Below, piece by piece: positions 3,774 through 19,805 of a DNA stretch of 64,000 bases. Every line of letters begins with the position of its first letter. Within the stretch, counting starts at the first letter, position 1. The notes beneath the pieces were generated by a model that made no database searches, was not told the DNA's origin, and saw nothing but the letters and a program-made list of their open reading frames with translations. Source of the DNA: Bacillota bacterium (GTDB lineage: Bacteria > Bacillota > Sulfobacillia > JAJZYS01 > JAJYTV01); NCBI GenBank assembly GCA_021793645.1, contig JAJYSJ010000003.1, forward strand, positions 170,993 through 234,992, written 5' to 3'. The translations under genes were made by a program, and so were the position numbers.

Positions 3774-5618
3774 TCACCATCGCACCGATAGGCGGGACGC
3801 CTGCACTGCGCTGGCGTCGATCACTCCTCCTGTACCCGCGAACTGCCCAACCGAAAGCACAATCCGCTGCCGTTGGTTTACGAACAACTGTAGCGGCACA
3901 TCCACCTTGCCGCTCACCGGCACCTGCCACGAGCACGCGATTTGTGACCCCGCTGTGGCGCAAGCGACGACAACGCCACTACCTCGTACAGCCACCTGCA
4001 CGTCCCACCAGCCGGGTTGTAGTGTTTCGTCGGTGCTGACAGCCGCAGATGCGATCCCCGTACCAAGCAGGTGAGACATGTTTGCCTGTCTCCAATGCGG
4101 ATGGAGCGTGATCACATGCAACTTGATGATCTTTGGCCTGTGAACGTTGCCGTGCTGTTCCAGAAGCACGATGCCAGCACTATTGGACACGACTTTATAT
4201 CCTCCACGCTCTGCAATCGGCACGAGGTCGAGGTAGTCGTGCATCGGCAGCGAGAGCGTCTCTTTGGCAATTGCGATATAGCGAGTCCCCATCTCGCCAA
4301 CAAATGCCTTCAAGAAGTCGGTGGGCGGCATGATGGCCACCAGCCTTGTTCTTCCCGTTTGGTCTAAGTAGGGGAGAAGGTTGCTCGTCGTCAGCAGGGT
4401 ATGACCACCAATGATGCGCCGATCTGTTGAGAGCGTCCGCATCTCAGGCGTACCAAAGAGGGATGTTGGGAAAAGTGCGGCAATGGAAGCAGGTGGCCAT
4501 CCGTACATCGTTTGTCCTGCAAGCCAGGCTGTCATGCCTGCGACAACAGCAAGTCTTGTTGTGAGTGGCCGCAGGGTGGTCGAAAGCGCGCGGAAGGCCA
4601 CAAGCCCTTCCGCTGTCGCCACAAATAGGGCCGGTAGTGCGAAGGATGTGTACTGGAAGTAACCCGAGTAGAATGTCGGGTTGAGCACCGCAAGGTTGAT
4701 GGCCAGAGCCACCACAACCGCAGGCAGAAGTCGCGGTCGCAAGAGCGGCAGGAAGAGTAGCGGACCAAATATGCGCACGAAATACTCCCATTTGGCAGGC
4801 CAGAGCAAGGCACTCTGGATAGCGGTCACTTCGCCACCGATGCTGGTTGCGGCCGGGCCAAAGAGAGTGCTTCGCATAAAGGCCGCATGATGAGGCGACA
4901 GCTCCGGCATCACGGCCGTGGCCACAAGGACTGCAGCGACGCCTGTGGCCGCCATAATCCACGCCGCACGCATGCTGCGCCGGGTGCCGCCTCCGAGCCC
5001 CACATGAAGAAGAGCGACGGACGCCAACGCCAGTCCCGCGTCCTCCTTCACCAGCAGGGTGCAGGCTGCGAGCAGCCATGCCCAACCGAGTCGGTCATCT
5101 CGCAGCGTGAGAAACAGTGCCATTGCGAAAGCTGCTGCCAGTGGGTCGAAATGGAACTCCTGCACCGCAACCGCTGCCCCGGGCGGGTATAGAACCATGA
5201 GCACCGCAAGCATGATGAGAAGCCAGCCACGAAGCCCAATTGTCTGCGCATAGCGCACGACCATTGCGACGATCACACCAAACCATGCAGCCTGCAGGGC
5301 GATGAGCAGCCACGGAGAGGACCAGAACCTGAACAGGAAAGCTACCGGGTAGCTGAACAAGGCAATGTTGTCCGCTAGATATGTGTGGCCCGGCAATGCC
5401 GCAAGGGTTGGGTTGAGCACCCCCTGTGCGATTCTTCGCATTGCCTCCATGTAGTACCCAAAGTCGTAAGCCCTCGCATGACCCGTGAGGTAGGCTACTC
5501 CTCCAACAGCCAGCCACCAAAGCGCACCGAGAATGCCAATGAGAAGTGGACCAGCCCATGTTCGCCGGTCGGCACGGACCCGTTCGATGGTCCTTTGGAC
5601 AGAACGCATCCTGATCAC
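3774..5618 (-). CDS. DUF2079-type multi-pass membrane protein
   Basis: This 614-residue integral membrane protein has about ten hydrophobic segments in its first 400 residues. The early YDFGYYMEAM and YLADNIALFSYP segments, followed by LLIALQAAWFG, fit the DUF2079 pattern (YDxG..., then H/N-x-P..., then LLxxQ). The last third (about residues 420-614) is soluble and partly beta-like. Distant resemblance to lipid-linked glycosyltransferases is known for such families, but the function here is not established. The GTG at 5618 has a GAGGTG site upstream; an ATG lies three codons in. A truncated paralogue with the same N-terminus lies at 7055-7483. Confidence 0.75.
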   Translation of the reverse strand: MIRMRSVQRTIERVRADRRTWAGPLLIGILGALWWLAVGGVAYLTGHARAYDFGYYMEAMRRIAQGVLNPTLAALPGHTYLADNIALFSYPVAFLFRFWSSPWLLIALQAAWFGVIVAMVVRYAQTIGLRGWLLIMLAVLMVLYPPGAAVAVQEFHFDPLAAAFAMALFLTLRDDRLGWAWLLAACTLLVKEDAGLALASVALLHVGLGGGTRRSMRAAWIMAATGVAAVLVATAVMPELSPHHAAFMRSTLFGPAATSIGGEVTAIQSALLWPAKWEYFVRIFGPLLFLPLLRPRLLPAVVVALAINLAVLNPTFYSGYFQYTSFALPALFVATAEGLVAFRALSTTLRPLTTRLAVVAGMTAWLAGQTMYGWPPASIAALFPTSLFGTPEMRTLSTDRRIIGGHTLLTTSNLLPYLDQTGRTRLVAIMPPTDFLKAFVGEMGTRYIAIAKETLSLPMHDYLDLVPIAERGGYKVVSNSAGIVLLEQHGNVHRPKIIKLHVITLHPHWRQANMSHLLGTGIASAAVSTDETLQPGWWDVQVAVRGSGVVVACATAGSQIACSWQVPVSGKVDVPLQLFVNQRQRIVLSVGQFAGTGGVIDASAVQASRLSVRW

Positions 5619-5672: not shown

Positions 5673-7060
5673 ATGGTCTCTGCGCACTCCTGGCACACGC
5701 TCTTCTCCTCGAACTTCGTCAACCCCTTGTGCTCCCGGCCCTGAGTCCATTCCGTTTCTCCGCCGCACCACTGCGCGAGATCGGCGCCGACCGCTGACCT
5801 CTGGTACCGCGTCGCCGCCGCCGCCCTGACGGGCCATCCGGAGCAAGTGGACCTCGACTTGCCGGGCTTTGACAAGCCGGCCGTGAGCCGCTACGCGGCC
5901 ACGGCGCCCGCTCTCCTCGTATGGTTCGACGCCTACAACACGGGAAGCCGTACCGGGCGACTGTCCGCCCTTTCGGCTTCCTGCTCGCCTTTCACGCATC
6001 ACACCCACCCACCGAGTCGTGGGAGGACCACCAGGACCGCTCCAAACGCCACCGCATGCGCTTGGAAGCGTGGCAGGACCTGCGCCAGCGCATCATGGCC
6101 GAGGGCGGCATCCGGCCGAACTCCGACTACCCGGCCCGCGACATTCCACGCAGCGTGCGGCGCCTGCGCGGCCTCCCGCCCGACGAGATAGCCAGCACTC
6201 TGGGCTACCCAGGCGACCGCGAGTTCATGGACGCGCTGTGGCACACTTACCGAGCAGCTCAAGAGGCCAGCAGGTCGTCTCGAACGGGCCCCTTCGACCT
6301 TCCGCGTCCCGTCGCTCCCTACGACAAGGACCCTGGCAGCGGTGTTACCCGCTGCTTCGACCGCGTGACGGGCCAGCCGGTTCCCCCTGACCGGCTGAAG
6401 TCCTACCGCGATGCCCTGGCTCAGTACCACTTGCACCCCGAGGACAAGTTCCTCGGCGGCGACTTCACGGATGGTGGCGCGACGAAGCGACGGCATGTCT
6501 ATGTCGCGTCGGTCGAATACATCGGCAAGGAGGCCAATCGCTGGGAGGAGCAGTTCTACCTCGGCGCTACGCCGCAGGCCCAAGTCGAGTACGGGCCTCC
6601 CCTAAGGACCTGGAGCGACTGCAGGGGGACGGTGCTGAGAGCCTGCCAGCCGTTCGGGCCGCGAGCGCTGGCGAGGCTATCGGGACTGTCGGTGGGTAAA
6701 GTGTCCGCCGTGCTGCTTGGACGGGGTGCCTCGCGTCGCGATACCCTGACGGCATTGCTACAGGCTACATCTACACGCAGGGCCGAAGCCGAGGAAGCGG
6801 ACAAGGCCATTGGCCAGATCATCGAAGCCGCCCGCGACCCCATAGAGGCCATCGGCCTGCGCAGGTTCGCTGAGGCTACAGGCGTGGACCCGTCGAACCT
6901 AGCCAAGGTTCTCGCCAGGCGAAAGAAGGCGAGCGGTGCCATGCTCGGTAGTTGCAAGCTGCCCTTGACGGCTTACAACCGTACCCTTGGAGCACCGCTC
7001 AGGTTGAGCAGCGGGACTGCGGACGATGGAAGCATGTGGTGTGGTCGAAAACGTTCATTT
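5673..7060 (+). pseudogene. Unknown helix-turn-helix-tailed gene with a stop and frameshifts
   Basis: A continuous protein can be traced through several frames. ATG 5673 opens MVSAHSWHTLFSSNFV, an in-frame TGA lies at 5742-5744, and the frame continues with DLWYRVAAAAL and PALLVWFDAYN. A shift near 5940 leads to GKPYRATVRPFGFLLAF and a 300-residue basic region. Near residues 225-330 it has helix-turn-helix-like pieces (ALARLSGLSVGKVSAVLLG, then RRFAEATGVDPSNLAKVLA). Another shift near 6945 leads to LQAALDGLQPYP. Third-position GC is high throughout, which supports this strand. The family is not recognised. It lies between the intact DUF2079 gene and its truncated copy. Confidence 0.55.
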
Positions 7061-7483
7061 GTGTGCTTGTGCTAACACGGTCAGGGTCCAGCCGCGAAGT
7101 CCGATTATCTGTGCATAGCGTACGACCATTGCAACGACTGCGCCGAACCAAGTGGCTTGCATGGCGATCAGAAGCCATGACGACGGCCAGATCCGGAATA
7201 GGAGGGCTACCGGATAGCTGTACAGCGCAATGTTGTCCGCTAGATACGTATGGCCAGGTAGCGCTGCCGGAGTTGGGTTCAACGCCCCTCCGGCGATCGT
7301 CCGCATCGCTTCCATGTAATACCCAAAGTCGTAGGCTCCGGCATGTCCTGTGAGGTAGGCCACCCCTCCGATCGCCAACCACCACAGCCCGCCGAGAACA
7401 CCAATGGCGAGTGGACCAGCCCATGCCCGCCGGCCGCTGAGAACTTGTTGCACAATCGCCCGAACTGGACGTACCCTGATCAC
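7055..7483 (-). pseudogene. Truncated DUF2079 membrane protein paralogue
   Basis: The first ~138 residues are about three-quarters identical by eye to the intact gene at 3774-5618 (shared TGHA, YDFGYYMEAM and LPGHTYLADNIAL). Homology stops after GLRGW near 7073 and the frame ends a few codons later. The upstream DNA also resembles that of the intact copy (GTG-ATC-AGG start context and a CATG...ATCGCAG stretch). This suggests a tandem duplication whose downstream copy stayed intact and whose upstream copy lost its 3' three-quarters. Confidence 0.75.
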
Positions 7484-9455: not shown

Positions 9456-10343
9456 CTAGTGCCCGAAGGTCTTCGCGAAGGAGAGCACGGCGGGACCCAG
9501 CAGCACCACGAAAATTGCCGGGAAGATGAAGAACACGAGCGGAAAGAGCATCTTGATCGGCGTCTTGAGTGCCTTCTCCTGTGCCTTTTGCCGCCGCAGC
9601 GTACGCATCTGGTCGCTCTGTACGCGCAGCACGTTCGCGATCCCGATGCCAAGCTCATCGGCCTGCACGATCGAAGAGACAAAGCTGTCCAGTTCAGGCA
9701 ACCCGATGCGGGCGGAGAAGGAACGCAGCGCCTCCGAACGCGGACGGCCGAGCTGGATCTCGCGCAGAGTCCGTCCAAACTCCGTTGAGATCGGTGCTGG
9801 AAAGCGCTCGGAAACGCGAGACAGCGCTGCATCGAAGCCGAGTCCCGCCTCGACCGACACCGACAGCAGGTCCATCACGTCCGGCAACGCACGTCCGAAT
9901 GTCCGCTGCCTCGCAGCGATGCGCTGCGCCAGCCAGAAGTCTGGCAGGCGCCATCCCAGCACGCCGAGCGCCAATGCGAATAGGACGGCACGGCCACCCA
10001 GCGCGAGGAACGAGGCGCCGATCACCGCAAGGATGATCCGGCTTCCGAAGATCGTGCCAGGGTTGGTTGGATTGCCCGCGCGTTCGATCCGCGCGCGCAG
10101 CACGTCTACTTGGCCCTCAGGGAGGAAGCGCGCGAATTGTGTGGACAGTGAGTTGAGAAACGGCTGCAAAACGCGGTTCCGGAAGCCCTCCCCCGTGCGC
10201 TCCTCCTGGAGCGGCTGCACAGGGTGCCGCGCGATCTCCTGCAGCTGCAGCTGCAGCCGCTCCTGGTGTGCACTCGGCGCGATAGCGTAGAGTCCGATCA
10301 CGAGCCCGACGGCTGCGGCTTCGAGCAGCAGCAAGACTTCCAT
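9456..10343 (-). CDS. tadC: Tad pilus inner-membrane platform protein TadC
   Basis: This 295-residue protein has a hydrophobic N-terminus, a pair of central helices and a C-terminal hydrophobic hairpin (MLFPLVFFIFPAIFVVLLGP), typical of TadC in the type II secretion F superfamily. The cytoplasmic domain contains DLLSVSVEAGLGFDAAL and QADELGIGIANVLR, both family signatures. With TadB it forms the membrane platform on which TadA acts to assemble Flp pilin. It starts with ATG 3 nt after the tadB stop and is the last gene of the operon. Confidence 0.93.
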   Translation of the reverse strand: MEVLLLLEAAAVGLVIGLYAIAPSAHQERLQLQLQEIARHPVQPLQEERTGEGFRNRVLQPFLNSLSTQFARFLPEGQVDVLRARIERAGNPTNPGTIFGSRIILAVIGASFLALGGRAVLFALALGVLGWRLPDFWLAQRIAARQRTFGRALPDVMDLLSVSVEAGLGFDAALSRVSERFPAPISTEFGRTLREIQLGRPRSEALRSFSARIGLPELDSFVSSIVQADELGIGIANVLRVQSDQMRTLRRQKAQEKALKTPIKMLFPLVFFIFPAIFVVLLGPAVLSFAKTFGH

Positions 10344-10346
10344 CGC

Positions 10347-11303
10347 CTACACCTCGATCCTTACAATGCGGCGCAGTGCGAGGAATCCGATGACCTGCAA
10401 GAAGACGGCGAAGATCAGCAGGGCGCGCCCAGGGCCTGGCTGCCACATCGGGTCGAGGAATGTTGGCGACATCACCGACATCACCGCGACGAGGGCGAGC
10501 GGCATCGCGCCCACAACCATCGCAGATATCCTGCCCTGCGCCGAGAGCGCACGTACCTCTCCTTGCAGACGAACCCGTTCGCGGATCGTCTGTTGGATGC
10601 GATCCAGGATCTCTGCAAGGTTTCCGCCGACCTGCCTTTGAATGCCGACGACGGTTACCATCAGTTCGAGATCGGCCGAACGCGCGCGGCGGGCGAGGTT
10701 CTCGAGCGCCTCGTCGATCGGCACGCCGACACGTGTCTCCGCCAGCATGCGTTCGAACTCTTGACCCAGCGCCCCGTGCGTCTGCCGCGCGCAGGCATCG
10801 AGTGCCTGCATCAGCGAGAAGCCTGCGCGAAGAGCGTTGGAAATTGTGCCAAGAGTGTCCGGAAGTGCTGCGGCGATCTGCTTTTGGCGTTCCTGTGAGC
10901 GCGTCACCAGGACGATTGAGGGTGCGAGCAGGCCGCCGAGCCCGAGCATCAGGGCAGCGAGCGCACTGAAGATCACTCCGAGCAGCGTGCCGAGCACGCC
11001 GATGCCCAGAGAAATGAGCAGGAACTCACCAGGGCGGAGGTTGAGGTCTGCGGCGCGCAGGCGGATCGAGAGCCCGGCAGACAGGGAGCGCCGTGCGAGC
11101 ATCCGCTCGATCGCGGCCACCAGACGGGTGCGCAGAGAAGAGCGTTCCCTCCCTGCCGCGTCTTCCTCCGCTGGCTGGGGAGCGCCACCCCTCCGCACCG
11201 ACGCACGCAGGTGGCGCAATACCTCCGGGTCGGCTGCAAAGAAGGCAGCGACAGCCCAGGACAGCGCGCCGAACAGGGCGATCAGCAGCAGGTCTCGCGC
11301 CAT
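10347..11303 (-). CDS. tadB: Tad pilus inner-membrane platform protein TadB
   Basis: This is a type II secretion F domain protein of 318 residues. It has an N-terminal membrane segment (LLLIALFGALSWAVAAFF), two central helices around LGVLGTLLGVIFSALAAL, a cytoplasmic domain with ALRAGFSLMQALDA and ERVRLQGEVRALSAQGR, and a C-terminal hydrophobic pair. The ATG at 11303 lies 1 nt after the tadA stop; the open frame extends upstream in frame but overlaps tadA. It pairs with TadC in the pilus assembly platform. Confidence 0.92.
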   Translation of the reverse strand: MARDLLLIALFGALSWAVAAFFAADPEVLRHLRASVRRGGAPQPAEEDAAGRERSSLRTRLVAAIERMLARRSLSAGLSIRLRAADLNLRPGEFLLISLGIGVLGTLLGVIFSALAALMLGLGGLLAPSIVLVTRSQERQKQIAAALPDTLGTISNALRAGFSLMQALDACARQTHGALGQEFERMLAETRVGVPIDEALENLARRARSADLELMVTVVGIQRQVGGNLAEILDRIQQTIRERVRLQGEVRALSAQGRISAMVVGAMPLALVAVMSVMSPTFLDPMWQPGPGRALLIFAVFLQVIGFLALRRIVRIEV

Positions 11304-11304
11304 C

Positions 11305-12609
11305 TCAGATTCCCCCGCCGGAGAAAATCTTTGAGTCCAGCGTTTGCCCATACATGGCAAGTCGGTCGAGGAAGCGCGGACGCAGTCCGGTCGGGCGGAA
11401 CCCCTCGTCCGGCCGGTAGAGAAAGATGTCCTGCAGCAGAATGACATCTCCCTCCATGCCCTGCACCTCGGTGATGTGCGTGATACGGCGCGAACCATCG
11501 CGCATGCGCTGCTGATGCACCACAAGGTCGAGGGCGGAGGCCACCTGTTCGCGGATCGCCCGCACGGGAAGCTCGAATCCCGCCATCAGCACCATCGTCT
11601 CGATGCGGGAGAGCACGTCGCGCGGTGTGTTGGCGTGAACGGTGGTGAGCGAGCCGTCGTGTCCGGTATTCATCGCCTGCAACATGTCGAGTGCCTCTCC
11701 GGCACGGACCTCTCCCACGACGATGCGGTCTGGCCGCATGCGCAGCGCATTGCGCACCAGCTGTCGGATGGTCACCTCGCCGCGTCCTTCGAGGTTCGGT
11801 GGGCGCGTCTCCAAGGAAACCACATGGTCCTGCTGCAGGCGCAGTTCCGCTGCGTCCTCGATCGTGACGATGCGCTCATCGGTCGGGATGAACGCCGATA
11901 GACAGTTGAGCAACGTCGTCTTGCCGGATGCAGTGCCTCCGGACACCACGATGTTCAGTCGGCCGCGAACGGCTGCCTGCAACAGCTCCGCCATCTGCGG
12001 CGTCAAGGAGCCGTTGCGCTCCAGGTCATCGATCGTCAGCGGACGCTCTGGAAAGCGCCGGATGGTTAAGGTGGGGCCGCGCAGGGCCAGGGGCGGGATG
12101 ATCGCGTTGACACGCGATCCATCCTTCAGACGCGCGTCCACCATCGGGCTCGCCTCGTCGATGCGCCTGCCCAAGGGCGCGACGATGCGCTCGATCAGTT
12201 CAAGAATTTCGCGGTCGTCGCGGAAGCGCGTCTGTGTGCGCAGCAGCTTGCCGCGTCGCTCCACGTAGACTTGGTTTGCCCCATTGACCATGATCTCGCT
12301 TACGGTCGGGTCTTCGAGCAGCGGCTGCAGGGGGCCAAGCCCGACGATCTGCGCGTAGAGCTCCTCGGTGAGCGTCTCGCGCTCCAGGGGACCGAGCCCC
12401 TCCTCCTCGCGCAGGATCTCCGAGATCCTGGCGCGGACCTCCTGGTACCACACGGCGTCTTGGCTCTGCTCGCGGCCCTCGAGGTCGGCCGCCAGGCGCG
12501 ATTGGACGATCTGGCGCAGCCGCTCGCCGCGGCTGAGTTCCGCGGAGCGCTCGACCGGAGTCGAGTCCCCAGATTCTGTGCCAGTCCTTAGACGCTTGTA
12601 GAGAGACAT
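11305..12609 (-). CDS. tadA: Tad pilus assembly/secretion ATPase TadA (CpaF)
   Basis: This 434-residue secretion ATPase of the VirB11/CpaF group powers Flp pilus assembly. The Walker A motif is GGTASGKTT (about residues 224-232), the Walker B-like segment RPDRIVVGEVR is at about 292-302, and the His box HDGSLTTVHANTP follows. The N-terminal domain carries the typical LGPLQPLLEDPTVSEIMVNG. The ATG at 12609 lies 3 nt after the tadZ stop. No key residue is missing. Confidence 0.96.
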   Translation of the reverse strand: MSLYKRLRTGTESGDSTPVERSAELSRGERLRQIVQSRLAADLEGREQSQDAVWYQEVRARISEILREEEGLGPLERETLTEELYAQIVGLGPLQPLLEDPTVSEIMVNGANQVYVERRGKLLRTQTRFRDDREILELIERIVAPLGRRIDEASPMVDARLKDGSRVNAIIPPLALRGPTLTIRRFPERPLTIDDLERNGSLTPQMAELLQAAVRGRLNIVVSGGTASGKTTLLNCLSAFIPTDERIVTIEDAAELRLQQDHVVSLETRPPNLEGRGEVTIRQLVRNALRMRPDRIVVGEVRAGEALDMLQAMNTGHDGSLTTVHANTPRDVLSRIETMVLMAGFELPVRAIREQVASALDLVVHQQRMRDGSRRITHITEVQGMEGDVILLQDIFLYRPDEGFRPTGLRPRFLDRLAMYGQTLDSKIFSGGGI

Positions 12610-12612
12610 GGC

Positions 12613-13785
12613 CTACTTCCCCTCCGCGATGGCCGAGACCCTGCCGCGGTCGCGCGCTTCCACGAGGCTCGCGCCGAGTCGCGCGATTCCCCGCGCGAGC
12701 GCAGAACGTCCACGCAGCCGTACGAGCGGTATGCCAAGGTTCGCTGCGCGGACCGCGACGTCGCCGTCCGATGGCAGGGAGTACAGGATCGGGTGGTCGA
12801 GGACCTGAGCGATTTCGTCACCGGAGAGGCCGATCCCCGCGTTGCCCCGGTTGAGCACAACCTGCAGCTTGTCGGCGGGATAGCCGAGCCGTTCGAGCAG
12901 GATGTCGAGCCCCTTCGCGGAGTTCTGCAGCGCGGGCACGTCAGGCGTGGTGACGAAGAGGATGCGTTCCGCCTCGTCCAGCGCCGTGATGACCGCCTCA
13001 CCAAAGTCCACCGCCGTGTCTACGATCACCCAGTCGTAGCTCGCCCGCAGCACGCGCAGGATCTCCTGCACGTAGTTGCGGTCCGGCTCCCGCTTCCCCT
13101 CGCCGTCAACGAAAGCCGCGAGATCGGGGGTCGGCGGAGAGGCTAGGATCTCGACGGAGCTATGCGCCGAGCGGGTCAGTGCCTCCTCGATCGCCGCGAG
13201 GTTGAGTGCACCCGAGCGGCGGCAGATGTCGACGATGGTCATGCCGGGATGGGCTCCGAAGAGCGTCGCTGCGCAGCCGAACTCGAGATCGAGGTCCACG
13301 ATTGCGACGCGCTGCCGGTGACGATCCGCCAGTACGACGGCAAGGTTGGCCGCAACCGTGGACTTCCCGACTCCCCCCTTGGTTCCAAAGACCGTCACGA
13401 CCTTGCCTCGACGCGTCCTGCGCTCCCCCTGCACCAGGCGGGCGAGTGTCGCCTGCAGTTCCTCCGGCGTGATCGGCTCTCCGAGGTAGTCTCGGGCCCC
13501 CGCCTGCATCGCGGCCCGAATCGACGCGATGTCGGAATCCGGGCCAATCACGACGACGCGCGTCGCGAGAGCCTGATCCAGTTCCGTACAAAGGGACAGG
13601 ATGTCGTCGCCGCCACCGAGGTGCAGCATCACAAGCTCGGGATGCTCTTGGCGCACGATGTGGCGCACGCGATCCGGAGTGTCCGCCTCCAGCACGCGCC
13701 CGAAGGGCCGCAGCGCGTCCCGCAGTTCGGCACGGCGCAGGGTTGGGGCGAGGAGTACGACGACGGGCTGACGTTCCTCGCTCAT
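12613..13785 (-). CDS. tadZ: Tad pilus localisation ATPase TadZ/CpaE (MinD-like)
   Basis: This 390-residue protein has an N-terminal receiver-like domain (about residues 1-125) without a clear phosphorylation set, then a ParA/MinD-type ATPase with the deviant Walker A FGTKGGVGKSTVAANLA (about 134-150) and the Walker A' segment VAIVDLDLEFGC. Such TadZ/CpaE proteins place the pilus machine at the pole. The ATG at 13785 shares its A with the cpaB TGA stop; a TTG one codon upstream is an alternative. Confidence 0.92.
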   Translation of the reverse strand: MSEERQPVVVLLAPTLRRAELRDALRPFGRVLEADTPDRVRHIVRQEHPELVMLHLGGGDDILSLCTELDQALATRVVVIGPDSDIASIRAAMQAGARDYLGEPITPEELQATLARLVQGERRTRRGKVVTVFGTKGGVGKSTVAANLAVVLADRHRQRVAIVDLDLEFGCAATLFGAHPGMTIVDICRRSGALNLAAIEEALTRSAHSSVEILASPPTPDLAAFVDGEGKREPDRNYVQEILRVLRASYDWVIVDTAVDFGEAVITALDEAERILFVTTPDVPALQNSAKGLDILLERLGYPADKLQVVLNRGNAGIGLSGDEIAQVLDHPILYSLPSDGDVAVRAANLGIPLVRLRGRSALARGIARLGASLVEARDRGRVSAIAEGK

Positions 13786-14486
13786 CAAGGCAACCCCCCA
13801 GCGCTGATGTTTGCCGCACCGCTACCGGCGTTCGCATGCGGCCGAAGCAGGAACGTCACGCTGCCAAGCTCTTCCGAGAGGGAGATCATAGCCGCTTCCT
13901 GCGGTGTTACCGCAAGCGTGACAAGGGTGTATGGAGATCCGTTCCCGGCAGCCGTCGGGTTGATGGTGCCCGTCCCCGTGCCAAGCTCGAGGACGGCAAC
14001 ATCCTGCACGACAACGCTTGCATGCGCTGGAGTGGAGGCGCCTGACGTGTTCGTCTGGGCCGGGAAGGTCGCCAATACATCGACCTGGTCGCCCACGATC
14101 AGGCTGCCGCCGACTCCGGTCACACCGTTGACTGGAACGGTGAAGGCACGCTCCCCGGCGGGAATCTGGTAGTTGAGACCCGCCATCTGGCTGGTCTGCA
14201 GCTCATCCGAGAGTACGGGATCCCCTGCAGTCAGTCCGACGCGCGCTACCTCACCCGTCGCGGCGCCGACCGACTGAAGGCTGCCCTGGAGCGCATGGCT
14301 TGCAGGCACACTGTGCACCTGAAGGTCGTGGGACGTCAGCACCGTACCCGGAGCTATGTCCTGGGCCGCAACCACAATAGCGACTGTGGGAGCCTGCGGC
14401 CGGGCCGTAAGCTTTGCGACGGCCACGGTCGCAATGAGTGCGACGACCAGAGGAATCAGGATGCGGATCAATTTGCGTCTGGTCAT
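13785..14486 (-). CDS. cpaB: Flp pilus assembly protein CpaB/RcpC (SAF domain)
   Basis: This 233-residue protein has one N-terminal membrane anchor (IRILIPLVVALIATVAVA), then an SAF domain (VVAAQDIAPGTVLTSHDLQ). After that comes the RcpC region with PAGERAFTVPVNGVTGVGG and GDQVDVLATF. In Tad systems this periplasmic or extracytoplasmic protein helps pilus assembly. Its ATG overlaps the tadG-like stop by 4 nt and its stop overlaps tadZ by 1 nt. Confidence 0.9.
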   Translation of the reverse strand: MTRRKLIRILIPLVVALIATVAVAKLTARPQAPTVAIVVAAQDIAPGTVLTSHDLQVHSVPASHALQGSLQSVGAATGEVARVGLTAGDPVLSDELQTSQMAGLNYQIPAGERAFTVPVNGVTGVGGSLIVGDQVDVLATFPAQTNTSGASTPAHASVVVQDVAVLELGTGTGTINPTAAGNGSPYTLVTLAVTPQEAAMISLSEELGSVTFLLRPHANAGSGAANISAGGLP

Positions 14487-15394
14487 TGAATTAAACGCTC
14501 CGCTTCGAGTCCGTAGTCGCCGGCGCTGCTGCCAAACTGGCCATCGACGACGAGGTGCATGAACTGCCCCGTGACGTCGCCGCCATTCACCGACTGGAGG
14601 TAGAACGCGGCGAAGCCGAGGATTGTCACACTGCTTTTGCCGCAGTCCGACGGGCTGATGATCGGCAGGTACAAAACCCGCGGCGACGTCGGCAAGACGG
14701 TCTGGTAGTTGCTGTTCGGATCGGAAGACTGGCGGGTCTTCAGCCCCGTATCGGTCGGGCCGACCATGTCCCCCGTCTCCGTCGGTACCCCATCGCCGAT
14801 TGTCATGGTCTGTGGGTAGCCGTCTTCAAGGTTGGTCTCGTACTGCGAGGCGCCGTTGTCGCCGTTCCCATCACTCGAACCGTTCAGGTCGAGGGCCATG
14901 TAGTTGCCGCAGCCTCCGCCGCCGGCCCCAGCCTTCAAGGTATAGGTCTGCCCGTAGACGAAGGGCTGTTCAAAGACGCCGAGCGGTACGGCTCCCTGCA
15001 GTTGGCTCTGCGGCCCGACCTCCACCACCGAGGTCTGCGAGAAGGTGCCGGAGTCGACCCCGAAGAGCGGTGCGAAGTAGTAGGGCACTGTGCCGGTCGT
15101 CGTCACCGTAATCGTCTGATTGGACTGTCCTACGCTGACAGTGACGTCTGCGCTCTGCACACCGTTCGCTGCTGCCGTAGCCTGCGCATCGACCGATGCC
15201 TGCACCGGATTGCTGGGAAGGTCCTGGCCGCCCGCGAGCGCTGCCGCGTCGGCAGCGGTCTTCAACTGCTGCACCAGGACGTAGGCCCGCCCCGCGTCCA
15301 GCGAGAGCGCGCCCATCGACAGCAGGGCGACGGCGGAGATTGCGAAGAGCACCGTCGCCTGCCCATGCTCACTGCGCATCTGTCGCATCGCCAT
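14483..15394 (-). CDS. TadG-like pilus-associated protein
   Basis: This 303-residue protein begins with a pseudopilin-like N-terminal helix (EHGQATVLFAISAVALLSMG), then LDAGRAYVLVQQLKTAADAAALAGG, the signature of the Flp/TadG N-terminal region. The rest is an extracellular, Gly/Ser/Thr-rich domain with little lysine and two cysteine-containing segments (GGGGCGNYMALDLNG and PSDCGKSS). It lacks an obvious von Willebrand factor A domain seen in longer TadG proteins. ATG 15394 shares a base with the tadE stop; a GTG one codon upstream is possible. Confidence 0.8.
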   Translation of the reverse strand: MAMRQMRSEHGQATVLFAISAVALLSMGALSLDAGRAYVLVQQLKTAADAAALAGGQDLPSNPVQASVDAQATAAANGVQSADVTVSVGQSNQTITVTTTGTVPYYFAPLFGVDSGTFSQTSVVEVGPQSQLQGAVPLGVFEQPFVYGQTYTLKAGAGGGGCGNYMALDLNGSSDGNGDNGASQYETNLEDGYPQTMTIGDGVPTETGDMVGPTDTGLKTRQSSDPNSNYQTVLPTSPRVLYLPIISPSDCGKSSVTILGFAAFYLQSVNGGDVTGQFMHLVVDGQFGSSAGDYGLEAERLIQ

Positions 15395-15834
15395 CACTCC
15401 ATGCGCATCACGGAAGTACTGGAGAGTTGCACAGACGATCCGATGATCGGCTGGAGCAGCGGCACCACTACCGTGACGGCGTATGATCCCTGGACAGTTA
15501 GTTCGGTACCCTGGGCACGCTCAGACTCCGGAGGAGTGATCGTCACTTGCAGCGCGCTCACTTGCAGGCTCGGGGCCGACTGGTCCACGACCTGAACGAT
15601 CTGGCTGTCGGACATGCCGAGCATGCCGGCCCTCGCTCCCTCTTCGACGGCCTGCTGGAGCTGCAGGTAATCCTCGATCACGATGCCTACCTGCAGCAGG
15701 CCGAGGATCACAAGTACGAGAACCGGAAGGATCAAGGCGAGCTCGATGGCCGCCTGACCCTTCCGGCTTGCGAAGCCCGAGCGCCGGAGCGCCTTGCGGT
15801 TCTTAAAGGCTGTGCGTGATCTGGTTGAGAACAT
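15394..15834 (-). CDS. tadE: TadE-type minor pseudopilin
   Basis: This 146-residue TadE-like protein has a basic leader and the sequence GQAAIELALILPVLVLVILG, which is the TadE cleavage and membrane helix region with the E at +5. It is followed by an exported domain. It is a presumed prepilin peptidase substrate that helps pilus assembly. The ATG at 15834 overlaps the end of flp by 32 nt and lacks a strong ribosome-binding site, suggesting coupling to flp. Confidence 0.88.
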   Translation of the reverse strand: MFSTRSRTAFKNRKALRRSGFASRKGQAAIELALILPVLVLVILGLLQVGIVIEDYLQLQQAVEEGARAGMLGMSDSQIVQVVDQSAPSLQVSALQVTITPPESERAQGTELTVQGSYAVTVVVPLLQPIIGSSVQLSSTSVMRME

Positions 15835-15976
15835 TGGAGACGCCGCCGCCCAGAGCAGTCAGCACTCCGATCACGGCTACAGCTACGAGGAAGATAATAA
15901 GGGCGTACTCCACCATGCCCTGGCCCTCGGACGCGCGCAGGCGGCGCAGCAAGTTCAAAACCATGAGTCCAGCCAT
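15803..15976 (-). CDS. flp: Flp family major pilin
   Basis: This 57-residue Flp-type pilin has a positively charged leader (LNLLRRLRASEGQG), then the processing site G/MVEYALIIFLVAVAVIGVL with the Glu-Tyr pair at +3 and +4, as in Flp pilins. It is the main fibre subunit; no prepilin peptidase gene is seen in this window. ATG 15976 has a strong GGGAGGGG ribosome-binding site, and an open frame upstream is ignored. It is the first gene after the c-di-GMP riboswitch and terminator. Confidence 0.94.
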   Translation of the reverse strand: MAGLMVLNLLRRLRASEGQGMVEYALIIFLVAVAVIGVLTALGGGVSNVLNQITHSL

Positions 15977-16010
15977 CTTGGCCCCTCCCTTTCCCCCGCC
16001 CCGAAGATAC

Positions 16011-16039
16011 AAAAATCCTCCCAAGGTTGCCTTGGGAGG
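16011..16039 (-). terminator. Intrinsic terminator between riboswitch and flp
   Basis: On the minus strand a perfect 10-bp stem (CCTCCCAAGG / CCTTGGGAGG) with a 3-nt loop at 16017-16039 is followed by ATTTTTG. It lies about 20 nt after the c-di-GMP aptamer and 35 nt before the flp start. It is therefore placed to act as the expression platform of the riboswitch, although it could also end aroK-aroB transcripts. Confidence 0.9.
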
Positions 16040-16055
16040 TTAGTACTTCTTAGCC

Positions 16056-16152
16056 TTCCCTTCGGCGGCTCGGCGATCATAGCCTCTTCGGCCGTAGACC
16101 CGTAGCTTTGCGTCCGACCCTTTCGGTGTCGTTTGCCTTTATCGCGGGGTGT
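16056..16152 (-). ncRNA. Cyclic di-GMP-I (GEMM) riboswitch controlling the tad operon
   Basis: On the minus strand the leader carries the conserved GEMM-I core: GGCAAAC, a stem closed by a GAAA tetraloop (CCGAAAGG), GGACGCAAAGC, then CTACGGGTCT and a second stem whose loop region has GGCTATGATCGCC before a closing GCC. Order and spacing match the Vc2-type aptamer. It sits between a consensus promoter and a strong intrinsic terminator, directly upstream of flp. The inferred role is transcriptional control of Tad pili by c-di-GMP. The sign (ON or OFF) cannot be settled by eye. Confidence 0.92.
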
Positions 16153-16166
16153 TCTATTGTGTCGCC

Positions 16167-16195
16167 AGCATACAGGCTCGTCCTATACCTGTCAA
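16167..16195 (-). promoter_or_regulatory. Sigma-A-type promoter of the riboswitch-tad transcript
   Basis: On the minus strand a perfect -35 TTGACA (16190-16195) is separated by 17 nt from -10 TATGCT (16167-16172). Transcription would start near 16160, just ahead of the c-di-GMP aptamer. The promoter lies between the aroK-aroB stop (16222) and the aptamer. Confidence 0.85.
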
Positions 16196-16221: not shown

Positions 16222-17745
16222 TTAATTTTCCCTGACCATCTGGGCCAAAAGCAGGGCATCTTCGCTGCCTACTTCCACCAGTTCGCAACTGCCAATGCGC
16301 GTCGGCACCACTAGGCGCAGTCGGCCCGCTTGCCGCTTTTTGTCGCGTCCAATAAACGGCAGCAGGCTCTGGGGATCTCCGGACCACGATGTTGGAAGCC
16401 CGAGGCGACGCAGCGTCGCGATGACGCGCGCCGCGTCCCGAAAGCCGTGGCGCGCGGCCGCGTACCGCGCGACCGCCGAAAGCCCGATGGCGACGGCGCG
16501 ACCGTGTGTGACGGTAAAGCCGCTTTGCGCCTCCACCGCATGTGCGATCGTGTGCCCGAGGTTCAGTTTCGCGCGCTCCCCGCTCTTCTCGAACGGGTCA
16601 CTTGCAACGATGCGTAGCTTCGTGCCGGCAGCGCGACTGATGGCGAAGTCGAGGTGCGGCCCCGCGGGCAGGCGCGGCCATCGCTCCGCTGCCGCAAAGA
16701 GTTCTGCATCGAGCCCTACGCCGCACTTGACGACCTCGGAGAGCCCATCGCGGAACGCCGCATGCGGCAAGGTACGCAGTGTTTCGGGATCAATCAGGGT
16801 CGCGCGCGCAGGATAGAACGCCCCCACGAGGTTTTTGCCCTCAGCCAGGTTGAGGCCGGTCTTGCCGCCGAGCGCCGCATCGGCCTGGGCCAGGACGGTC
16901 GTCGGCACGAGCACGAGCGGCACGCCCCGCAGGTAGGTGGCCGCAACGTAGCCGGCGAGGTCACAGACGGCGCCGCCGCCCAGCGCGAGCACCGGTTCAT
17001 CCCTTCCCATGCCGAACTGGGCGGCGCGCGACAGAAGGTTTTCGTAGATTGGAAGCTCCTTGGCTGCGTCTCCGTCCGGCACGACGACATCGGCCGTCTG
17101 CCGCCCACCGTAGTGCAGCTGTGCAAGCAAGGACTCCCCCCATGCTTCCCGCACCGTGGGCTGCATCAGGAGCATCGACTTGCCGAAACCGCTGAAGGCG
17201 CCGGCATGGCGGCGTGCGCCGCGCCCGAAGTAGACCCCGGGCCCCAGCCGGTCCAGCTGCAGGAAGGAGTAGATCCGGTCAACGGCACGGCTTGGCGCCG
17301 ACTCTGTCCAGAACCAGGCCTCGGCGACCTCCTCGTAGAGGGGTCCACGCTCCCATCTCAGCGCCCGCAGACGTTCCGCGGGATCCGGCTCCAGCACGGG
17401 CCGCCCCTTGCCGCCGCGCAGGCGACCGAGCAGCTGCCCGTCGCGCGCCGTCAGCCCGATCACCCGCACCTCGCGCAGGCGGTCGCGGTTCTCTTGGCGG
17501 AGGATGGTCCCCCCACCGGTCGAGACGATGCGGCGGTCGCCCGAAAGGGCCTCCGCGAGGACGCGGGATTCCTCGTCGCGGAACCGGCTTGTCCCCATGC
17601 TGATGAGGAGTTCACCGACGGGCTTGCCGTAGCGCGACTGCAGAAGATGGTCGGTGTCGAGGAACTCGAACTGCAGTCGCTCCGCCAATTCCCTGCCGAT
17701 TCGTGTCTTGCCCGCCCCGGGCAGCCCTACCAGCGCGACGATCAC
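16222..17745 (-). CDS. aroKB: Bifunctional shikimate kinase / 3-dehydroquinate synthase
   Basis: This 507-residue fusion covers two shikimate pathway steps. Residues 1-165 are shikimate kinase: P-loop [14 protein letters not shown], and STGGGTILR. Residues 175-507 are dehydroquinate synthase: [48 protein letters not shown] and the metal-ligand region [12 protein letters not shown] and HGRAVAIG. The linker is short. It starts with GTG, overlapping the aroC stop by 4 nt, so aroE-aroC-aroKB form an operon. Both active sites look complete. Confidence 0.95.
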
Positions 17746-18878
17746 GGCTGTAGCCGCTCCGTGTACTGGCGCAGCGCGAATGCGACATCAGCCATCGTGT
17801 CGCCGCCGAATTTTTCGAGGAAGAGGTCGGCGAGCACCAGCGCCATCACTGCTTCGAGGACGACGCCGGCCGCCGGTACCGCAGTAATGTCCGAGCGTTC
17901 GACCTGCGCCAAAAACGGCTCCTTCGTCACGAGATCCACTGACCGAAGGGGGCGCCGCAGCGAACTCAGAGGCTTCATCGCGGCGCGTACGACGAGGGGT
18001 TCCCCGTTGGAAATGCCGCCTTCGCTGCCGCCGGCGTGGTTCGACGGTCGCACGTAGCGCCCGCCTTCCCAGAGGATCTCGTCGTGCACGGCAGACCCAC
18101 GCTGGCCGGCAGACCAAAAGCCATCCCCCACCTCAACGCCCTTGATCGCTGGAATTGCCATCAGTGCCTGAGCCAATCGGCCGTCGATCTTTCGGTCCCA
18201 CTGCACATGAGAACCCAGGCCGACCGGCAGCCCAGTCGCGACCACCTCAACGACACCGCCGAGCGTGTCTCCATTCAGCTGTGCCTGATCGATCGCGCGC
18301 ATCATCCGTTCGGCCGCATTAGGGTCTTGGCAGCGCACGGGCGACGCTTCGATCGCCGCAGGGTCCAGCCGCGTTGGGGATTCCGCCTCCTCACCCCCGA
18401 GCGCCACCACGTGGGACAGGATGTCGACGCCAAATCCGCGCAGAAACTCGCGCGCCACGGCGCCCAAGGCGACCCGCATCGCTGTCTCGCGCGCGGAAGC
18501 GCGCTCAAGGATGTCACGCGCGTCAGCACGGTCGTACTTCTGCGCACCGGCGAGATCCGCGTGGCCAGGACGCGGACGGGTGAACTGCTTCCCAGCCGGC
18601 TCCCCCTCCGGCGCCATGCGATCCAACCAGTTCTCGTGGTCCTTGTTGCGAATCATCAAAGCGATCGGTGAACCGATGGTTTCTCCGAAGCGCAGGCCCG
18701 ACAACCACTCGATCTCGTCCCGTTCGATCTTCATCCGCATGCCACGCCCGTATCCACCCTGGCGGCGCGCGAGTTCCCCATCGATCATCGCCTTGGAAAG
18801 CCGCAGCCCTGCGGGCATCCCCTCGATAATTCCAACGAGTGCCGGGCCGTGCGATTCCCCCGCCGTCAGGTAACGCAA
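17742..18878 (-). CDS. aroC: Chorismate synthase
   Basis: This 378-residue enzyme makes chorismate from EPSP using reduced FMN. It has the signatures [20 protein letters not shown] (with TTG start), RRQGGYGRG, and later [19 protein letters not shown] and [21 protein letters not shown]. The length is normal. The TTG at 18878 lies 3 nt after the aroE stop and follows a GGGGGAG ribosome-binding site. Its end overlaps aroKB by 4 nt. Confidence 0.96.
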
Positions 18879-18881
18879 ATC

Positions 18882-19703
18882 CTACTCCCCCTTGTCCCGA
18901 GCCGCATCGGCCTGCATCGCAGCATCGAGTGCCGCTGCCATCGCGCGATGGGGCGGCTGTTCTCCGTACCAGAGCCGCCACGCGAGCAGGGCCTGCGCGA
19001 GGAGCATGCCATTGCCGCCGAGCACGCGGCAGCCGCGCCGAAGCGCGCGCTGCTGCAGTTCGGTCGGTGCCGGACGGTACAGGAGATCGTACAGAATGAT
19101 GCCCTCTGGGATGTCATGCTCTGCGAGCGGCGACTCGCCAGGGCGCCCTCCGAGCGTCGTGGCGTTGACAATCAGATCCAGACCGTGCAGGCCTGTCCAA
19201 CCTTGCCAGTCGAGTGTCTGCGCACGGAACTCGATTGCGAAGCGTCCCAGCTTCTCGCGGTTGCGTCCTGCGACGTGCAGGCGTACGCCCTCTCGCTCAA
19301 GTGCGGCGCAGACCGCCAGGGCAGCGCCGCCGGTGCCCAGCACGAGTGCTTCGCGCACCGGCCTTCCCACGGCGGCGATCGGCTGCCAGAAGCCGTCTGC
19401 GTCAGTGTTGTGACCAATCCAGCCGCCCTCACCGCGGACCAGCACGTTGACGGCGCCGATCCGCCTCGCCCAGGGGTCGAGCCGCGTGCACAGCAGTGCG
19501 GCAGCCTCCTTGTGCGGCGTCGTCACGTTCGCGCCGCGTGCGCCAAGCAGATAGGCTCCACGCATAGCACCATGCAGATCAGCCTCTTCAACGGGCCAAA
19601 GCATGTACTGTCCCTTGCGGCCGCTCTCGCGCAGTGCAGCACTATGGATTGCTGGAGAGTACGACTTGTCGATGCCCTGGCCGAATAGGCCAAGCAGTTC
19701 CAT
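18882..19703 (-). CDS. aroE: Shikimate dehydrogenase
   Basis: This 273-residue NADPH-dependent enzyme reduces 3-dehydroshikimate. The N-terminal substrate site is visible as GIDKSYSPAIHSAAL and GANVTTPHKEAA with the catalytic lysine, followed by GAVNVLVR and NTDADGFW. The Rossmann segment is VLGTGGAALAVCAAL, with N and R following in AGRNREK. ATG 19703 has GAGGTG upstream; the open frame reaches 8 codons further. It is the first gene of the aroE-aroC-aroKB operon. Confidence 0.94.
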   Translation of the reverse strand: MELLGLFGQGIDKSYSPAIHSAALRESGRKGQYMLWPVEEADLHGAMRGAYLLGARGANVTTPHKEAAALLCTRLDPWARRIGAVNVLVRGEGGWIGHNTDADGFWQPIAAVGRPVREALVLGTGGAALAVCAALEREGVRLHVAGRNREKLGRFAIEFRAQTLDWQGWTGLHGLDLIVNATTLGGRPGESPLAEHDIPEGIILYDLLYRPAPTELQQRALRRGCRVLGGNGMLLAQALLAWRLWYGEQPPHRAMAAALDAAMQADAARDKGE

Positions 19704-19805
19704 GCCACACCTCGTCCTGCCTAGCATTGTCTCTCAGACCGCCTCAAGCGGCGGGTAGCGAAATCGCCAAGGCGCGCAACGCCTTGGCGAACAGCGTAGG
19801 CTTGG

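Follow-up and report, generated by a model that had tools for sequence, protein, structure and literature searches.

A class I c-di-GMP riboswitch, probably an OFF switch acting by transcription attenuation, predicted upstream of a Tad pilus operon in a Bacillota bacterium

Tad pili, which serve in attachment and surface sensing, are widespread. The GEMM-I class of aptamers, attenuation as a mechanism, and the control of motility and adhesion genes by such RNAs are already known, and RNA-level control of pili by c-di-GMP was found described for the type IV pili of Clostridioides difficile, which the signal upregulates. The locus analyzed here, contained in a 64-kb window (the whole stretch of DNA that was examined), raises the question of whether a Tad operon may be controlled in a similar way and in which direction c-di-GMP would act. 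A sequence-only reading had proposed that the operon is switched by c-di-GMP at transcription elongation, leaving the sign open. This proposal, a prediction from sequence, is supported by the analysis: the GEMM-I aptamer scores far above threshold, the gene order agrees with the proposal, and the leader has alternative pairings of the kind expected of transcriptional control. To it we add a probable OFF sign, a putative antiterminator and the finding that the arrangement recurs. We consider it likely that a class I c-di-GMP riboswitch in the leader places the flp-tad operon under transcription attenuation, most probably as an OFF switch.

The following genes were identified downstream of the leader:

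15803–15976, minus strand: flp, Flp/Fap pilin of 57 aa (Pfam PF04964, 34.6 bits, cut-off 32.2)
15394–15834, minus strand: tadE (PF07811)
14483–15397, minus strand: tadG-like gene (PF13400, Tad/TadG-like)
13785–14486, minus strand: cpaB/rcpC (PF16976 and PF08666)
12613–13788, minus strand: cpaE/tadZ-like ATPase gene (PF13614 and a weak response-regulator match)
11305–12609, minus strand: cpaF/tadA ATPase gene (PF00437, T2SSE, 223 bits)
10347–11303, minus strand: tadB (PF00482, T2SSF; start at MARDLLL)
9456–10343, minus strand: tadC (PF00482, T2SSF)

These eight genes, all on the minus strand, overlap or are separated by gaps of a few bases, and each has a Pfam match, as expected of a Tad (type IVc) pilus operon; the start codon of flp is located at 15976. 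The “full Tad operon” of the earlier reading is borne out for the eight genes and their order but not in its completeness, as no prepilin peptidase is encoded within the operon, and the only Peptidase_A24 found in the genome is located on another contig (C74). The assembly (3.40 Mb) contains seven GEMM-I aptamers. Synthesis and breakdown of c-di-GMP are to be expected, because the genome encodes nine GGDEF domains, at least six of them with an intact GGDEF-type motif, and five EAL domains.

The gene directly upstream of the leader (16222–17745, minus strand) encodes a shikimate kinase fused to a 3-dehydroquinate synthase (Pfam SKI and DHQ_synthase) and ends 27 nt before the promoter, on the same strand. 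Beyond this fusion gene lie putative aroC (17742–18878) and aroE (18882–19727) genes, assigned from their ORFs alone. On the other side of the operon, the window contains a gene for a 614-aa membrane protein (3774–5618, minus strand), whose first ~140 residues recur in a truncated second copy (7055–7483, minus strand); a 384-aa ORF (5921–7075) lies between the two on the opposite strand.

The leader itself contains the following elements:

16167–16195, minus strand: sigma-70-type promoter, TTGACA-17-TATGCT, matching 10 of 12 consensus bases
16061–16147, minus strand: c-di-GMP-I (GEMM-I) aptamer (Rfam RF01051, 72.2 bits)
16146–16149, minus strand: 5′ strand of helix P1, CCCC, which can pair with GGG 16060–16058
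16040–16066, minus strand: putative 5′ strand of the antiterminator (GCC, GAA, GGGAAGG and the rest of the linker), from duplex energy and folds
16029–16039, minus strand: shared strand CCUCCC-AA-GGC, putative 3′ strand of the antiterminator as well as 5′ arm and first loop base of the terminator
16007–16039, minus strand: predicted intrinsic terminator, 10-bp stem 16039–16017, loop CAA, tail AUUUUUGUAU, from sequence and energy
15996–16006, minus strand: CUUCGGGGCGG, a possible second P1-competing element in the read-through RNA
15982–15991, minus strand: ribosome-binding site of flp, AAGGGAGGGG, from sequence

On the minus strand the order is therefore that of the coordinates read downwards: promoter, aptamer, hairpin with U tract, and flp. 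The TTGACA-N17-TATGCT promoter had been noticed previously; it is present at 16195–16167, on the minus strand, which had not been specified. Promoter sites of such quality are expected 0.3 times per 2 kb, and a TTGACA is likewise found upstream of the aptamer, at a similar place, in leaders of the same family. Transcription would start near 16160. The leader segment folds better than 193 of 200 shuffled sequences (z −2.2), and the ribosome-binding region of flp forms a computed duplex of −12.0 kcal/mol with an anti-SD sequence.

The identification of the aptamer as GEMM-I, also made by the earlier reading, was confirmed by a covariance-model search: RF01051 matches over its full length (model positions 1–87 of 87) with 72.2 bits, far above the gathering threshold of 35, and an E value of 3.3e-12 calculated over 64 kb and 4227 Rfam families. 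It is the only Rfam match within the window and cannot reasonably be a chance match. The P2 GAAA tetraloop is present (CCGAAAGG), and helices P2 and P3 are paired, with two non-standard pairs. G at 16137 and C at 16065, which we take to be the equivalents of G20 and C92 in the numbering of the Vc2 structure, are both intact, and both columns are conserved in the aptamer alignment. The element is predicted to bind c-di-GMP as a class I riboswitch.

GEMM-I members selective for cyclic AMP-GMP mostly carry A at position 20. The G20 equivalent is G in all the aligned members, which argues against a GEMM-Ib aptamer sensing cyclic AMP-GMP, or both dinucleotides, at this locus. Ligand specificity is not readable with certainty from sequence, and the GEMM-Ib riboswitches of Geobacter, which belong to the same aptamer family, do bind cyclic AMP-GMP (PMC8835794); unlike these, the window has G at the position mapped to G20, and we regard such a ligand as very improbable.

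Analysis of 61 sampled genomes of the class revealed GEMM-I aptamers in 58 and Flp in 57. A comparison of the placement of 150 GEMM-I aptamers (among the matches listed) and 83 Flp places showed that, among the matches listed, GEMM-I lies upstream of flp on the same strand in at least 21 of the 61 genomes (about a third; 22 cases), and in no case downstream of flp on the same strand. The distance from aptamer to flp is 94–164 nt in 20 of these 22 cases and 311 and 469 nt in the others. With approximately seven aptamers in 3.4 Mb, a GEMM-I would fall by chance within any one 500-nt stretch of a particular strand in fewer than 0.1% of genomes. Divergent or closely spaced aptamers were also observed: at G031:C70:17266–17601 (L023, L039) two GEMM-I aptamers diverge from each other at a distance of 160 nt, one of them directed towards flp, and neighbouring aptamers on the same strand, within ~300 nt, are present at G023:C16, G015:C56 and G030:C69.

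Outside the class, a search of 79 named CpaF loci with a model built from the class aptamers detected four GEMM-I. The aptamer, confirmed with Rfam, directly precedes flp in Neobacillus muris (L085) and Fredinandcohnia onubensis (L078), so that the arrangement also occurs in Bacillaceae; the other two aptamers, in Firmicutes MAGs (L080, L075), lie before a prepilin peptidase-like gene heading the tad operon. Within a 15-genome sample of the family of N. muris, Flp was detected in five genomes, four of which carry a GEMM-I 88–484 nt upstream.

This recurrence at flp across many families bears on whether the aptamer might be a non-functional relic, with the operon expressed constitutively or transcribed from the upstream aro genes. 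Such decay has a precedent in C. difficile, where 11 of 16 c-di-GMP riboswitches are functional and five are not (PMC6366702), and 27 nt separate the promoter from the end of the co-oriented upstream gene. However, the aptamer is full-length, scores 72 bits, retains its conserved residues and has its own promoter, which, together with the recurrence, makes a relic extremely improbable.

The hairpin downstream of the aptamer, described earlier as a perfect 10-bp terminator with a T tract followed by flp, was found at 16039–16017 with flp downstream of it. It comprises 10 perfect pairs and a 3-nt loop (stem −17.4 kcal/mol), with AUUUUU directly 3′ of it, and is predicted to act as a terminator. 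Terminator-like sites are not rare by themselves (1.1 expected per 2 kb); the one in the window leader scores better than 200 dinucleotide shuffles (p 0.005). As a set, the homologous leaders are enriched in such sites: hairpins with a T tract exceed shuffled sequences (p < 0.04) in 16 of 22 homologous leaders. The same scan revealed no clear terminator in G012, G013, G024, G030, G031 and G032, i.e. about a quarter of the leaders, and in the sister-genus leader the hairpin is present with a weak and displaced U tract.

Helix P1, which c-di-GMP would be expected to stabilise, lies outside the Rfam model. P1 in the window consists of 3 bp (CCC within 16149–16146 with GGG 16060–16058). Across the leaders P1 can be formed from different complementary flanks: CCC/GGG is found in the family of the window, AUGUCC/GGGCGU in another family, ACUGCCC/GGGCAGU in G027 and UUUCUCUUC/GAAGGGAAG in G039. 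The GGG at 16060–16058 is common to P1 and to the putative antiterminator, whose GCC (16066–16064) ends with the equivalents of C92 and C93. By sequence and energy, the leader can thus fold into either an intrinsic terminator or an antiterminator, the latter drawing on the 3′ strand of P1. The predicted duplex between the antiterminator strand and the 5′ arm of the terminator has an energy of −13.6 kcal/mol (z −3.8, p 0.002 against shuffles). In folds of transcripts ending before the 3′ arm of the terminator, the mean fraction of the 5′ arm paired upstream fell from 0.78 without constraint to 0.14 with P1 enforced, a loss of the antiterminator that enforcing P1 brings about partly by construction. 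The unconstrained minimum-energy folds of longer transcripts show the aptamer increasingly displaced by long-range pairs; full-length folds were therefore left out of the assessment of the sign.

The antiterminator pairing exceeds shuffled sequences (p < 0.05) in 13 of the 18 leaders with a recognisable terminator, eight of the 18 being from the window's own family and hence not independent; in this test it was not significantly better than shuffles in G028, G048, G047, G013 and G014. C92-C93 are included in the pairing in 14 of 18 leaders. Across eight lineages, matched strands pair more strongly than permuted ones (p 0.02), a modest effect obtained with terminator arms picked by eye. A covariation count within the family of the window found the core pairs of the antiterminator invariant, and hence no covariation, in a poor MAFFT alignment with a broken linker and an offset structure. 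The same topology, built from different sequences (e.g. GCCGAAGG/CCUUCGGC in G027), appears to be present in most leaders with a clear terminator, short of a formal proof by covariation.

The cost of enforcing P1 in the window leader, in nearest-neighbour energies that leave out the tertiary contacts of the aptamer, is 0.7–1.7 kcal/mol before CCUCCC has been made, 3.9–6.4 kcal/mol afterwards and 1.3–1.9 kcal/mol once the terminator is complete. Since the cost is low before CCUCCC and high after it, ligand bound early could pay for P1. This calculated profile fits a ligand decision taken during transcription, as expected of such a switch.

These elements suggest the following course of events. 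RNA polymerase would start near 16160 and synthesize the aptamer. With c-di-GMP bound, P1 would close (CCC in 16149–16146 with GGG 16060–16058) and C92-C93 would be held by the ligand site; the 5′ arm of the terminator would then have no upstream partner, the 10-bp terminator would form and transcription would stop before flp. In the ligand-free RNA, P1 would stay open and GCC-GAA-GGGAAGG would pair with CCUCCC-AA-GGC as the latter emerges; with this antiterminator in place the terminator could not start and the pilus genes would be transcribed. Tad pili would accordingly belong to the low-c-di-GMP stage.

Closure of P1 takes a strand from the antiterminator and not from the terminator, and an OFF switch is therefore the simplest reading. 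The same riboswitch might nevertheless act with the opposite sign, c-di-GMP favouring read-through and Tad pili being made at high c-di-GMP. Adhesive structures are commonly raised by c-di-GMP, which counts in favour of this alternative. In addition, leaders of the sister genus (G009) and of G025 keep the arm paired upstream when P1 is enforced, arm pairing not being lowered in either. ON precedents are the class II riboswitch of the C. difficile type IV pili and the class I riboswitch Bc2 of Bacillus thuringiensis cap, which acts by read-through (PMC6366702). A precedent for OFF is found in C. difficile, where each of the seven class I c-di-GMP riboswitches that are functional switches its target off by termination (PMC6366702); the sign cannot be derived from the aptamer class, because Bc2 is ON. 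In an ON design, however, one would expect the terminator to contain the 3′ strand of P1 itself; here it begins 21 nt downstream of the aptamer, and P1 takes away a strand of the competing hairpin. We therefore favour the OFF switch and consider the opposite sign unlikely.

A further alternative is that control is mainly translational, or that the hairpin is merely mRNA structure, with c-di-GMP acting on access to the ribosome-binding site. The sequence CCUCCC complements the ribosome-binding site of flp, the second element (16006–15996) can pair with the 3′ strand of the aptamer, and the sister-genus hairpins lack a good U tract. Moreover, the stretch between aptamer and flp in Neobacillus muris (L085:2056–2122) is able to base-pair with the ribosome-binding site and has no clear terminator, which suggests that this leader may be a translational version. 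Against translational control in the window stand the AUUUUU directly after the hairpin and the enrichment of terminator-like sites across the leaders, and we judge it distinctly improbable as the main mode.

The second element, CUUCGGGGCGG, lies between the terminator and the ribosome-binding site and is complementary to the 3′ end of the aptamer (duplex −16.5 kcal/mol); GGGGCGGGG is invariant in eight same-family leaders. It may hold the read-through RNA in the ligand-free form or may be merely a G-rich ribosome-binding region. A tentative extension of the attenuation model, which we regard as possible though doubtful, is that Tad pilus operons in several Bacillota lineages are under the constant OFF control of class I c-di-GMP riboswitches and that, in the family of the window, CUUCGGGGCGG captures the 3′ strand of the aptamer in the read-through RNA and so locks the switch ON. 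If true, a standing OFF control across lineages would group Tad pili with the motile, low-c-di-GMP stage.

Among known systems, the riboswitch Cd1 (Cdi-1-3) of the C. difficile flgB operon is similar in that a class I aptamer leads a long surface-organelle operon; it raises transcription termination in response to c-di-GMP (PMC6366702). In contrast to the window, it controls flagella instead of a Tad pilus, and its sign has been proven by experiment, whereas that of the window is predicted. Cdi-2-4, upstream of C. difficile pilA1, likewise combines a c-di-GMP riboswitch and a terminator before a pilin gene and pilus operon, but its aptamer is of the unrelated class II, its type IV pili are non-Tad and it is an ON switch (PMC6366702). 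Bc2 shares with the window a class I aptamer, transcription read-through (predicted in the latter) and a surface adhesin as target; it differs in being an ON switch of a single adhesin gene (PMC6366702).

None of the open-access papers searched describes a Tad operon controlled by a riboswitch, in agreement with the earlier reading, which was not aware of wide description of the arrangement. Within that literature, the riboswitch class and the attenuation mechanism are known and the predicted Tad target appears to be new. The predicted direct RNA-level link to Tad operons recurs in the class and in Bacillaceae, with N. muris and F. onubensis as testable organisms. The OFF sign, if true, would place Tad pili before the commitment to the sessile state.

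Further GEMM-I aptamers of the window's genome precede other genes. One (L164:3173–3260) lies before motA, followed by fliG, and has a U-rich stretch directly after it; the aptamer at L162:4312–4399 (minus strand) is followed by a U tract of similar kind. Two others have strong terminator-like hairpins: the aptamer at L160:3058–3144 precedes a gene encoding a secreted protein of 894 aa that contains FIMAH and Ig-like domains, and that at L161:3121–3208 precedes a decayed relative with a FIMAH domain.
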